DNA of 64,000 bases from Falsiroseomonas tokyonensis (GTDB lineage Bacteria > Pseudomonadota > Alphaproteobacteria > Acetobacterales > Acetobacteraceae), in NCBI RefSeq assembly GCF_019024325.1, contig NZ_JAFNJS010000001.1, positions 1,240,001 through 1,304,000 of the forward strand, read 5' to 3'. This document shows, one piece after another, positions 11,735-61,265 of the stretch (its first letter is position 1; each line of letters starts with the position of its first letter). The translations under genes and the position numbers were made by a program. Under the pieces are notes generated by a model. That model did not search any database and was not told the DNA's origin. It saw only the letters and a program-made list of their open reading frames with translations.

Positions 11735-12346
11735 CTAGGGTGGCGCGTTCAGCAGCGCCGCCAAGCGCACCAACTCGGCGAGCGAGCGCGCGCCCATCTT
11801 CTGCATCGCGGCGCGGCGGTGGATCTTCACCGTGATCTCGCTGAGCCCCAGCTCCCACGCCGCCTGCTTGTTCATGCGCCCGGCCGTGACGAGTGCCATG
11901 ACCTCGCGCTCCCGCACCGAAAGCGTTTCGAAGCGGGCGCGCAGGTCGGCACTGCTGCTGGCCGCGGCGCGCCGCGCCTGGTCGCGCTCCAACGCGTTGG
12001 CGACGGCATCGAGCATCTCCTGATCGCGGAACGGCTTGACCAGGAAGTCCACCACGCCCGCCTTCATCGCCCGTACCGACATCGGAATGTCGCCATGGCC
12101 CGTGATGACAATGGTGGGCAGCACGATCCCAAGCTCCTCCAGCCGGCCGTGCAGTTCGAGCCCATCCATGTCGGGCAGCCGCACATCGAGGATGAGGCAG
12201 CCCGGCCTGTCCGGTCGTGCCCTGCCAAGGAAGTCGCCCACCGACGAATGCGCCTCCGATGCCAGCGCAGCCGAGCGGAACAGGCGCACCAGCGCCTCGC
12301 GGAGCGGGGCGTCATCTTCCACGATATGGATTAGCGGCTCGTTCAC
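11735..12346 (-). CDS. FixJ-type response regulator (receiver + LuxR HTH), 203 aa
   Basis: Cytoplasmic transcription regulator controlled by phosphorylation. The receiver occupies about residues 1-120, with the acidic pair in IHIVEDDAPL, the phosphoacceptor Asp in LILDVRLPDMDG, Thr in VITGHGD and Lys in FLVKPF. A LuxR-type helix-turn-helix follows (LSVREREVMALV, MNKQAAWELGLSEITVKIHR). The start is a GTG at 12346 that overlaps the stop of the kinase gene upstream (GTGA), so the two are translationally coupled and form a cognate pair. It is the last gene of a four-gene kinase-receiver-kinase-regulator operon. Targets are unknown. Confidence 0.9.
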   Translation of the reverse strand: MNEPLIHIVEDDAPLREALVRLFRSAALASEAHSSVGDFLGRARPDRPGCLILDVRLPDMDGLELHGRLEELGIVLPTIVITGHGDIPMSVRAMKAGVVDFLVKPFRDQEMLDAVANALERDQARRAAASSSADLRARFETLSVREREVMALVTAGRMNKQAAWELGLSEITVKIHRRAAMQKMGARSLAELVRLAALLNAPP

Positions 12347-15658: not shown

Positions 15659-16243
15659 CTAGTCGGGCCTCGAATGATGGCGGCGCCAGGCGCTGGGGCT
15701 GGTTCCGGTCGCCCGCCGGAACACGCGGGAGAGGTGAGCTTGGTCGCACATGCCGCAATCCAACGCGATCTGCGCCAGAGGCACATCGCTGTGCAGCAGT
15801 TGCAGCTGGGCGTGCTGTACACGCAGGCGCAGAAGGTATTCGTGCGGCGTGTCGCCGAAGCTGGCCTTGAAGGCACGCGCGAAATAGCTGGCGCTCAGGC
15901 GAACCAGGGCTGCGAGATGCTCGACACGGATCGGCTCCTGCAGGTTCGCCTCGATATGTGCGATGACGCGGCTTTCTTGCCATGGCGCGAGGCGGCCGGT
16001 GCGTCGTTTTGCCGCCGGCGCCGCTGGCCGGCGCAGCATGGCGGAGGCGCGCGCCAGAAGGCCGCGCACCGCATCGGCGTTGTGCGGCAGGGCGCGGTCC
16101 GCCTCATCCAGCAGCTGCGCCAGGGCGGCCGCCACCATGGCGTTCGGGAGGGTGGGCGCCATCCGCGCCGGAACGGCGCCAAAGGGGGTGCGATCTTGCA
16201 GACTGGACATCGTCGTCTCCTTCTCGTTGCCGGCGTCCGACAC
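15659..16243 (-). CDS. AraC-family transcriptional regulator, 194 aa
   Basis: A short regulator whose C-terminal 100 residues are an AraC-type double helix-turn-helix: HIEANLQEPIRVEHLAALV, SASYFARAFKASFGDTPHEYLL and the second helix pair VPLAQIALDCGMCDQAHLSRVF. The first 90 residues are Ala-rich and do not resemble the usual cupin sensor, so ligand control is unclear. It is divergent from the STAND regulator gene at 16436 across about 190 bases, so it may control that promoter and its own. An alternative start is the in-frame ATG at 16210. Confidence 0.85.
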   Translation of the reverse strand: MSDAGNEKETTMSSLQDRTPFGAVPARMAPTLPNAMVAAALAQLLDEADRALPHNADAVRGLLARASAMLRRPAAPAAKRRTGRLAPWQESRVIAHIEANLQEPIRVEHLAALVRLSASYFARAFKASFGDTPHEYLLRLRVQHAQLQLLHSDVPLAQIALDCGMCDQAHLSRVFRRATGTSPSAWRRHHSRPD

Positions 16244-37161: not shown

Positions 37162-37884
37162 ATGCAGTCCGCTCGGCCCGTTCTGATCGTCGAGGACGAC
37201 CCCGGCGTTTCCGCGATGATCAACGCGGCCTTGACCCGCGACGGATGGCAGACCGTTACGGCGAAAACCCTCGCGGAAGGGCGTGCACGCCTGCGCGATG
37301 ACCAGCCCTGCATCGCAGTCGTCGATCTGGGCCTGCCCGACGGCAACGGCATCGCCTTTGTGCGGGAAGCGTCCGGCCAGGGACGGCTTGGCATCATCGT
37401 GGTCAGTGGCCGCGGCGACGCGATGGACCGCGTCATCGGCCTTGAGGTCGGGGCGGACGATTACCTCGCCAAGCCCTTCTCCCCGCGTGAGATGGTGGCC
37501 CGCGTGCGCGCGCTGAGCCGCCGGCTGGAGCCGCAAGTCCCGACCGCAGAAGCGCCCGCCGCGGCCGAGCTCGACACGCGGCAGGCCTGGCGGTTCGGCA
37601 GCGTCAACCTGGAGCCCGCCCGCCACCGTCTGGTCGATGCCGAAGGGGCGGAGACACGGCTGACCGGCGGCGAGGCCAGGCTGCTGTCCCTTCTGCTGAC
37701 GCAACAGGAGAACCTGGCGGACCGCGAGACCATCTCGGAGCGCGTGCTCGGGCGCCGCCTGCTGCCGGAACAGCGTGGAGTGGACCAGTTGGCCTCCAAT
37801 CTTCGCCAGAAGCTGCACGAGGCGTCGGCCGGGCGCATCACGCTCGCCGCCGTCCGCGGCCGGGGCTACCGCCTCGTCTGGTAG
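37162..37884 (+). CDS. OmpR-family response regulator (receiver + winged helix), 240 aa
   Basis: Transcription regulator. The receiver (VLIVEDDPGVSAMI; phosphoacceptor Asp in AVVDLGLPDGNG; IIVVSGRGD; Lys in DYLAKPFSP) occupies residues 1-120 and is joined by an Ala-rich linker to a winged helix (TGGEARLLSLLLTQQENLAD, GVDQLASNLRQKL, VRGRGYRLVW). It lies downstream of the multi-PAS hybrid kinase, a natural partner. The preceding 60 bases (37085-37145) are much more AT-rich than the surroundings and contain a TTTGG/CCAAA dyad, suggesting a promoter of its own. Confidence 0.9.
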   Translation: MQSARPVLIVEDDPGVSAMINAALTRDGWQTVTAKTLAEGRARLRDDQPCIAVVDLGLPDGNGIAFVREASGQGRLGIIVVSGRGDAMDRVIGLEVGADDYLAKPFSPREMVARVRALSRRLEPQVPTAEAPAAAELDTRQAWRFGSVNLEPARHRLVDAEGAETRLTGGEARLLSLLLTQQENLADRETISERVLGRRLLPEQRGVDQLASNLRQKLHEASAGRITLAAVRGRGYRLVW

Positions 37885-41709: not shown

Positions 41710-43191
41710 CTAGCTCGCCAGCTTGACGAATTCGAGCGACGGCAAGCGCACCCCGCTTGCCGTGCAGCCCGAGGTGTCGAGCCCCGACCCGCCCTGGAAT
41801 GTCATGCCCCGGACCACGAAGGCCATGCAGTTTGTCGCCGCAGCGGTATCCACGTTCGGCCCGCCCCGCAGTTCGACATTCGTCGTCGGTCCCACGATCG
41901 CGCCGCGCAGCAGCACGGCGGGACCGCCCTGGATGGTGATGCGCGCGACGCCGGTCTCCGCGGGCCAACGCCCGTCGCGATAGAAAAGCACGCCGTCGAG
42001 GCCGGTGGCGAGCTTCGGGTCGGCCGTCGTGCTGCGCGCGCTGAGGTTCACGATGGCATTCGCCTGGATGTCGATGGCACCGACATCGGACGGCTTGTTG
42101 CCGGAACCTGGCACCATGGCGATCGTCACGCCGTTGGTCGGCGAGGTGCAGAGCGGGCAGTTCACCTGCGAACCGCCGGAGACCGAGAAATTGCCCTGCG
42201 AGACGACGTAGATGCCAGGGCTGAGTTGCAGCGTGCGCCCGCCTGTCACCGACATGCTAGTATAGCAGCCTGGCGGGAGCGCGACGATGCCTTGTTCGGG
42301 CGATTCATCGAGCTTCTTCGGCGACGCGCAGGCGCTGCCGCGGGTCATGTCGTCGAGCAGGGCGGGCCCTTGGCTGGTGATACTCGCATAGGGATTGGCC
42401 GTGTCGGCCTGATAGAAGGCCGGCCGGTTGCGCGTGAAGGCCAGCTTCAGCAGCGCTTCCGCCGCTGTGCAGGTCGTGCAGCCCCCGCTCGAGATGAGCG
42501 AGGACACTCGCACGGTGAAGCTGCTGCCCGCATTGGACCCGCCCGACCCGAAGCGGAGGGAGTCCGGATGGCGGTAATTCGAGCTCAGGCCGCAATTCGG
42601 CGCCTGCAGGTTGGAGTTGCCGGCGAAGGCGATCGGCTGGCTGAGCGACAGCACGCAGGCGCCGCCAGGGTCGCTCTGCGCCACTGCCGTGGCAGAGGCG
42701 GTCACCACCGGCGCTGCGCTCATCATCGCCCGCACGAAGGGCATCGGCTGGGTCTGCTGGACAGTGACGGTGACCTGGCGCGGGCTCGTGGCTCGCAGGA
42801 CCGCGACATCCACGTTCGTGATGCGTGTCTGCGTGCCGGTCTGGAAGCCGTTTCTCGCCGCCACATCGGATGCGAGCGCCCCAACGGCGACGTCGTCTGC
42901 CCCTCCGGCCATGCCGCGTGCTGCCGCGATCGCGGCCGCATCGACCGCGCTCTGCATGTTCCGGCGCACCAGGTACAGGTTGCCCACATCGGTCGCGAGC
43001 GCCGCGGCGCCGAGCAGCGCTGAGGCGCCGATCGCGACCGTGACGGCCACGGTTCCCCGGCGGTCGCGACGCAGCGCCCAGGCGGCTGACATACCCTGCG
43101 GCCGCGGAGCGGGTACACCCTTCGTGGTCGCGTGCTTTGCCGCCTGTGCGGCGCGCCGATCCGCCACTGGCGCTGTCGGGATGGGGACCAT
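41710..43191 (-). CDS. tadG: TadG-like pilus assembly protein, 493 aa
   Basis: Large Tad-locus protein anchored by one N-terminal membrane segment. RRDRRGTVAVTVAIGASALL leads into AALATDVGNLYLVRRNMQSA and VDAAAIAAARGMAGGADD, the hallmark TadG_N pattern. The rest is a periplasmic domain rich in Ser, Gly and paired Cys (SSGGCTTCTAAE, QVNCPLCTSP) with LSPGIYVVSQGNFSVSGG. ATG 43191 is preferred over 43092 because it has a strong AAGGAG eight bases upstream. It is the first gene of the minus-strand unit and is divergent from the pilin gene across 526 bases. Confidence 0.85.
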   Translation of the reverse strand: MVPIPTAPVADRRAAQAAKHATTKGVPAPRPQGMSAAWALRRDRRGTVAVTVAIGASALLGAAALATDVGNLYLVRRNMQSAVDAAAIAAARGMAGGADDVAVGALASDVAARNGFQTGTQTRITNVDVAVLRATSPRQVTVTVQQTQPMPFVRAMMSAAPVVTASATAVAQSDPGGACVLSLSQPIAFAGNSNLQAPNCGLSSNYRHPDSLRFGSGGSNAGSSFTVRVSSLISSGGCTTCTAAEALLKLAFTRNRPAFYQADTANPYASITSQGPALLDDMTRGSACASPKKLDESPEQGIVALPPGCYTSMSVTGGRTLQLSPGIYVVSQGNFSVSGGSQVNCPLCTSPTNGVTIAMVPGSGNKPSDVGAIDIQANAIVNLSARSTTADPKLATGLDGVLFYRDGRWPAETGVARITIQGGPAVLLRGAIVGPTTNVELRGGPNVDTAAATNCMAFVVRGMTFQGGSGLDTSGCTASGVRLPSLEFVKLAS

Positions 43192-43464
43192 GCGGAAGGC
43201 TCCTTGATGAGCGCGCTGCAGAGCAGGGCATTGGCAGCGCCATCGCACGATGTTCGACGCCCGCCGGAATCGCCCGGCAGGTTTCGTCATGAGTTGTATG
43301 CGGTTCCCGAACCCGCGGAGGGCCATGACGGCGTCACCTGGGTCCGCATCGTCGTCGGAAACGCCTTGTCCGGACTGATGTGACCTTGATGCGGTGGCAG
43401 CATCCACCCCGCTCAAACCACCGCGCTGCGGGGGAATGGCCGCCCTACGATGTCAGCAAAGAAG

Positions 43465-43494
43465 TACACTCGAATACATCCGACTACACTTGAA
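43465..43494. repeat. Three contiguous 10-bp direct repeats upstream of flp
   Basis: Three 10-mers follow each other without gaps: TACACTCGAA at 43465, TACATCCGAC at 43475 and TACACTTGAA at 43485. They fit the consensus TACAYYYGAM. The 10-bp period puts each copy on the same face of the helix, as expected for cooperative binding of a regulator. They lie about 225 bases upstream of the pilin start. Confidence 0.6.
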
Positions 43495-43504
43495 TTGCTT
43501 GCGT

Positions 43505-43535
43505 GACATTGTCGCAAATCGTCAGACACATTGTG
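43505..43535. promoter_or_regulatory. Pair of 9-bp palindromes, operator candidates
   Basis: GACATTGTC (43505-43513) and CACATTGTG (43527-43535) are each perfect dyads around a central T. They share the core ACATTGT and have centres 22 bases apart, about two helical turns. They follow directly after the 10-bp repeats in the AT-rich part of the tadG/flp gap. Confidence 0.55.
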
Positions 43536-43717
43536 AATGAGATATCAAACAAAGCAAAGCGGGGTGGGTTTAACTGACAATTCCAGTGTTGTTGGGCTTC
43601 GATCAACCGCGCATTGTGTTTCCGGCGACGGGAAATACCGCTGGTGTGCATGCGCTCACCGCGGACGCGCATTGGGTGCGTCCCAAAGCCTGTCGACCTA
43701 CAACGCGGAGACAGAAC

Positions 43718-43885
43718 ATGCTGAACAAGTTCGTTACCGTCACCAAGCAGGCCGCCGCCGACCGCAAGGGCGTGACGGCCTTGGAATACGGCCTCATCGC
43801 CGCCGCGCTGGCCGTGGGCGTCATCGGTGCGTTCAGCGGCCTGTTCGGCCGGCTGGTCACCGCCCTCGGCGGCTTCACCTTCTAG
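43718..43885 (+). CDS. flp: Flp family type IVb pilin, 55 aa
   Basis: Major subunit of the Tad adhesive pilus. The short basic leader (MLNKFVTVTKQAAADRKG) ends at the Flp processing site, and the mature part has the conserved Glu-Tyr in GVTALEYGLIAAALAVGV followed by IGAFSGLFGRL. Cleavage after Gly by the prepilin peptidase encoded next door is expected. The length is normal. ATG 43718 gives the canonical leader. It is the first gene of the rightward tad operon, and a very stable hairpin follows it. Confidence 0.92.
   Translation: MLNKFVTVTKQAAADRKGVTALEYGLIAAALAVGVIGAFSGLFGRLVTALGGFTF

Positions 43886-59726: not shown

Positions 59727-59727
<1 letters not shown>
59122..59727 (+). CDS. atpH: F1 ATP synthase delta subunit, 201 aa
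   Basis: Peripheral stalk subunit linking F1 to F0. Family features are [55 protein letters not shown] and the C-terminal [22 protein letters not shown] in two parts, ending [13 protein letters not shown]. No ATG or GTG exists in frame near the homologous start; TTG 59122 (AGGA upstream) gives [12 protein letters not shown] and is the likely initiator. The stop overlaps the atpA start. First gene of the F1 operon. Confidence 0.93.

Positions 59728-61265
<1,538 letters not shown>

Follow-up and report, generated by a model that had tools for sequence, protein, structure and literature searches.

Repeats in the AT-rich patch between the divergent tadG and flp genes of Falsiroseomonas tokyonensis, compared with other flp upstream regions of the family

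Two described systems stand closest to the locus dealt with here. The promoter of pilA of Caulobacter crescentus—the gene of a Tad-type pilin—contains four CtrA sites built as TTAA-N7-TTAA, in some cases with a 6-base spacer; these sites are irregularly spaced, being 31, 3 and 78 bases apart (PMC11264516). In Pseudomonas aeruginosa, the response regulator PprB is described as controlling the Flp pilin gene flp (PMC6821963).

The locus of F. tokyonensis resembles Caulobacter pilA in having several—here putative—regulator sites upstream of an alphaproteobacterial Tad-type pilin gene, as well as a match to the CtrA model in its own genome; it differs in that the sites of pilA are TTAA-N7-TTAA with irregular spacing, whereas the repeat found here is TACANNNGAN. 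With PprB it would have in common a two-component response regulator for a Flp pilin gene, that role being putative here; the host of PprB is, however, a Pseudomonas, i.e. non-alphaproteobacterial, and the putative site at its own promoter, GGCTAATAC, is unlike the decamers and dyads described below (PMC6821963). The preliminary description of this DNA, which knew of no described Tad operator of such a form, overlooked Caulobacter pilA, although the sequence and spacing of the pilA sites do differ (PMC11264516). At the level of titles and abstract openings, no description of the decamer/dyad repeats was found in the literature.

The divergent gap and its AT-rich patch

The window, i.e. the whole stretch of 64,000 nucleotides analysed, contains the following elements of the locus:

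41710–43191, minus strand: tadG, with a Pfam match to the Tad domain PF13400
43192–43717, no strand: tadG/flp intergenic gap between the divergent genes, 526 bp, 58% GC
43440–43620, no strand: AT-rich pocket, 46% GC, a putative promoter or regulatory patch
43718–43885, plus strand: flp pilin gene, with a Pfam match to Flp_Fap PF04964
43508–43537, minus strand: sigma-70-like promoter candidate facing tadG, TTCACA, spacing 18, GACAAT, a match to the consensus only

The start of tadG was placed at 43191 because of the AAGGAG upstream of it. By Pfam, the genes around the gap encode TadG, TadE-like proteins, Flp, a prepilin-type peptidase and RcpC/CpaB, the Flp gene being the only one found by the Pfam model search of the whole genome. 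The preliminary description was right about the anatomy, i.e. an AT-richer pocket in a divergent tadG/flp gap: the GC content observed in 43440–43620 is 46%, that of the whole gap being 58% and that of the window 70%, and the 60-base stretch starting at 43490 is the AT-richest within the 400 bases before flp. When compared with the rest of its own genome, the gap matches itself only, and a mobile or repeated element was rejected on this ground. Transcription terminators were also looked for, and none was found.

A regulatory region in the gap is likely on general grounds; promoters are expected in 43440–43620 because this is an AT-rich patch between divergent genes in a genome of 70% GC. We infer that the patch most likely carries both the promoter of the tadG operon on the minus strand and that of flp on the plus strand. 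The candidate facing tadG, whose second hexamer is preceded by TG, has 9/12 consensus matches, and one such site was present in the gap, where shuffles give 0.2 on average. A strong flp promoter was not found in the gap, the plus-strand candidates picked by eye reaching only 8/12.

Probably, the gap as a whole is a divergent control region of an ordinary kind, and the decamers and dyads are species-specific features of its AT-rich patch. It should be noted that, against such an ordinary region, the promoter matches are to the consensus only and that the leader of tadG would be ~310 bases long. That flp has a riboswitch or another structured RNA leader was rejected: Rfam gave no match at E up to 1, the fold of 43536–43720 had a z of −1.67 with 6/200 shuffles equally stable, and that of the repeat stretch 43450–43560 was ordinary (z 0.22).

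The decamer array and the two dyads

The repeats themselves lie in the AT-rich patch as follows:

43465–43494, plus strand: three contiguous decamers, TACACTCGAA (43465–43474), TACATCCGAC (43475–43484) and TACACTTGAA (43485–43494), exact strings with 22/30 pairwise matches
43505–43513, no strand: dyad GACATTGTC, exact string, 4-bp arms and one central base
43527–43535, no strand: dyad CACATTGTG, exact string, 4-bp arms and one central base, 22 bp from the first

Ten bases separate the end of the array (43494) from the first dyad (43505), and thirteen bases lie between GACATTGTC and CACATTGTG. The strings, coordinates and spacings of the three contiguous 10-mers had thus been reported exactly; the strings and the 22-base spacing of the two perfect 9-bp dyads had been exact as well, their number being, however, that expected by chance (see below).

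In tests that were devised for both the array and the dyads after the pattern had been seen, the array score of 22/30 was reached in a fraction of 0.0006 of dinucleotide shuffles of the gap at period 10 and in 0.003 at any period from 7 to 22, the corresponding fractions for shuffles of the AT pocket being 0.0004 and 0.0005. The decamer array is non-random locally, and its being rarer than local chance (0.0004–0.003) speaks against an ordinary control region. Tandem Repeats Finder reported no repeat in the gap.

With regard to the dyads of the 4+1+4 type, 479 of them occur across the window, and the gap has three where its shuffles average 2.5. A pair of dyads sharing 7/9 positions or more and lying no further than 40 bp apart was met in 0.008 of the gap shuffles and 0.002 of the AT-pocket shuffles; some 7-mer recurring over the same distance was common (0.67 and 0.24, respectively). 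The dyads are unusual only in their mutual likeness, their number being at chance level; that likeness, again rarer than chance (0.002–0.008), is a further point against the ordinary region. Both dyads are overlapped by the hexamers of the tadG-facing promoter candidate, so that, should these hexamers act as a promoter, the dyads would be promoter elements rather than operators.

That the array and the dyads are pure coincidences picked by eye from 64 kb is possible, but less likely than not. The window holds three period-10 arrays of equal score (22/30), the dyads are present in the expected number and the patterns were chosen post hoc, all of which is consistent with chance; the two other arrays, however, are 90% GC, where matches are easy, leaving the decamer array as the sole one at ordinary composition, and both unusual features fall within 71 bases in a likely promoter patch.

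Searches of the own genome gave different pictures for the two elements. The decamer triple, with at most 2 mismatches, is present in a single copy, i.e. itself, and the decamer pair, with at most 3 mismatches, matches one further place (3 mismatches) versus one control match. An equal frequency of the motifs at unrelated sites, which the preliminary description had named as evidence against itself, was therefore not seen for the array, unique in the genome. The 17-mer comprising a dyad and its flank, GACATTGTCGCAAATCG, matches 14 places with at most 3 mismatches, versus 1 for its reversed control. A genome-wide regulon for this stretch was nevertheless rejected, the closest of the other 13 places—the sole one with fewer than three mismatches—being inside a 356-aa reading frame; a weak spot of this rejection is that the coding context was read for that closest place of the 13 only. 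Within the window, there are four other ACATTGT-type sites, of which that at 59935 lies inside the long frame 59727–61265, and the arrangement ACATTGT-N15-ACATTGT, with the cores 22 bp apart, was found in one of the 15 genomes of the genus, namely the own one.

Recurrence in related genomes and the operator hypothesis

For the comparison of flp upstream regions, 59 tad loci were fetched, 46 of which were usable besides the window; those dropped were L135, without a tadV match, and 12 loci without flp by the signature used. Together with that of the window, this gave 47 upstream regions from 22 genera. The first ATG in the 40 codons preceding the signature was taken as the start of flp, and upstream positions may therefore be off by tens of bases; in L075, judging from the printed protein, flp may begin 51 bases further downstream. 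A tadG match is divergent from flp in only 22/46 regions. A relative of CpaB was found in 81 of 150 family genomes and in 11 of 15 genus genomes, the own genome being counted in both; three of the 11 genus matches lie near contig ends and yielded no flp.

The 46 upstream regions of flp compared from elsewhere in the family contain neither a comparable decamer array nor such a dyad pair. The best array score among them was 20/30, in a GC-rich stretch, the window ranking first, and two of the 46 reached a shuffle fraction of 0.05, about as expected from 46 tests. The heptamer ACATTGT/ACAATGT occurs in five of these regions—once in four of them and twice in one—the dyad pair being absent from each of the five. 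A query made of the gap plus flp was matched in 11/15 genus genomes, own included; outside the own genome, the BLASTN matches in these 15 genomes start only at the flp end of this query and not in the gap, and in 397 family genomes all the BLASTN matches listed outside the own genome start at or after flp. The conservation in orthologous tad loci that had been proposed as a check was thus not observed (0/46).

The nearest tad locus found is in genome G102, its CpaB being 71% identical and its gene order as in the window (kinase, two TadE-like genes, tadG, flp, tadV and cpaB). The search for related loci gave one named locus, Falsiroseomonas bella. It should be pointed out here that, because the nearest tad locus is that distant, the absence in relatives is weak evidence against a recently evolved operator.

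Two observations were made on the loci of relatives. First, both tad loci of the genus g48 (L076 and L079) share a nearly identical AT-rich stretch before flp, which holds the string CGCAACATGATACAGAACGTTTCG and a CtrA-like site with an N6 spacer; as a conserved element controlling flp, this stretch is a more promising candidate than the repeats of the window. Second, two to four flp-like genes are in a row before tadV in L066, L078, L081, L096, L124, L130, L137 and L139.

It is common for OmpR-family proteins to bind direct repeats spaced by roughly one turn of the helix, and the window contains a gene of this type:

37162–37884, plus strand: OmpR-type response regulator (Response_reg and Trans_reg_C), Pfam match

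This gene sits between two hybrid kinases. The regulator at 11735 has a receiver plus a GerE/LuxR-type domain (LuxR/FixJ-like) and that at 15659 is AraC-type, which bears out the families previously assigned to all three. On one reading, the OmpR-family regulator at 37162 would bind the decamers as a tandem-site operator and another regulator would bind the dyads as a second one, pilus expression being tied in this way to the sensor block; this we consider quite unlikely. It would agree with the array being locally non-random and upstream of flp, and with the OmpR-type gene being 6.3 kb away between the two hybrid kinases. As in OmpR-family tandem-repeat operators, contiguous direct repeats ~10–11 bp apart, i.e. 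one helical turn, were found upstream of the presumed target (22/30) with an OmpR-type gene nearby. The uniqueness of the array in the genome would be allowed for a dedicated one-target regulator.

On the other side, the array, as a putative operator, differs from such operators in having neither a second genomic site nor conservation: recurrence at orthologous promoters or other targets was not seen, with 0/46 flp upstream regions and no second array. No second decamer pair occurs in the window, the region upstream of 37162 included, the next best score being 11.8 versus 31, and the window has no other TACA-N6-TACA. The two closest own-genome relatives of the 37162 regulator are 62–69% identical in parts, and the stretches around them are without a comparable pair (best scores 4.1 and 10.1). 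Near the tad locus of G102 (14 kb), the search gave no more than a receiver domain of 31% identity, the best match of the 37162 regulator in that genome—37% identical over nearly the full length—being located elsewhere than the tad locus. A pairing of regulator and array that is recent and private to this species would still be compatible with these results. The two stacked operators for a nearby regulator, as originally suggested, are accordingly not borne out by any recurrence of the array or the dyad pair.

No regulon could be recognised to which the decamer array would belong, and the relatives examined lack it. Within the ordinary control region preferred above, the decamers may serve as a weak binding site private to this species, any binding being conjectural, or may have arisen by chance as a short tandem duplication in the AT-rich DNA of the promoter patch.

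CtrA-type boxes upstream of flp in the family

TTAA-N7-TTAA with at most one mismatch occurs 17 times in the 47 upstream regions, versus 2.7 (sd 1.7) in shuffles, 0/200 of which reached that number. The box is present in 13/47 regions (L075, L077, L084, L091, L096, L102, L103, L123, L124, L129, L131, L136 and L137), versus 2.3 expected in shuffles, and in 9/22 genera. In the spacer scan, N7 gave 17 sites and N6 13, the other spacers giving 2–8; the control word AATT-N7-AATT gave 10. In the band from −200 to −80, which was picked after the positions had been seen, N7 accounts for 12 sites, spread over 8 genera, and N6 for 8, spread over 5 genera, versus 0–5 sites for the other spacers; with shuffles confined to the band, 11/46 regions had a box versus 1.5 expected (0/200 reaching). 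The box-forming events are fewer than the sites, because 5/13 box regions come from one genus.

As to the regulator, the CtrA candidate from the list of own-genome regulators, L156, which we take by eye to be ChvI-like, was rejected as CtrA on this appearance, and a family model was for the same reason used instead. A match to the CtrA model above the curated cut-off was obtained in 8/8 genomes tested, the own one included, and in 1/14 control genomes, the own-genome CtrA matching NF045991 with 381 bits versus a cut-off of 350.

The window and its genus do not follow this pattern. An N7 or N6 box with at most one mismatch was found in none of the 8 flp upstream regions of the genus, and no TTAA-N7-TTAA of that quality, as expected of a CtrA-controlled pilin promoter, is present upstream of the flp of the window. 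The window has two CtrA-like sites, both with two mismatches, and 0.28 of local shuffles give such a site; one of them is:

43570–43584, plus strand: weak CtrA-like site TTAACTGACAATTCC, 148 bases before flp, two mismatches, not significant

CtrA-type boxes are clearly enriched upstream of flp in part of the family, and not in the genus of the window. The flp of the family might accordingly have been ancestrally under CtrA via TTAA-N7-TTAA ~80–200 bases upstream, as is Caulobacter pilA, the species of the window keeping just the weak site at 43570 and the preliminary description having pointed to the wrong element. This scenario, which seems unlikely, would account for the 17 boxes versus 2.7 in shuffles, the spacer peak at 7 and 6, the enrichment in the band (11/46 versus 1.5) and the CtrA-model match in 8/8 genomes; against it are the 0/8 regions with a box in the genus of the window, the chance level (0.28) of its two-mismatch sites, the 34/47 regions without an N7 box, the origin of 5 of the 13 carriers in one genus and the control word, which also reaches 10 sites. 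In parts of the Rhodospirillales, the CtrA relay is reported to be incomplete (PMC2877005). A rewiring of the Tad pilin in this species—loss or degeneration of the CtrA box found before flp in many relatives, and takeover by the private decamer array under a response regulator dedicated to it and encoded in the two-component block next to the tad genes—is very improbable.

A species-specific promoter patch, which is how the gap is preferably read, by itself changes little. The more useful side result is the enrichment of CtrA boxes at a preferred position before flp in part of the family; an extension of the Caulobacter-type cell-cycle control of the Tad pilin therefore becomes testable, as does the loss of CtrA control in some lineages, such as the genus of the window.
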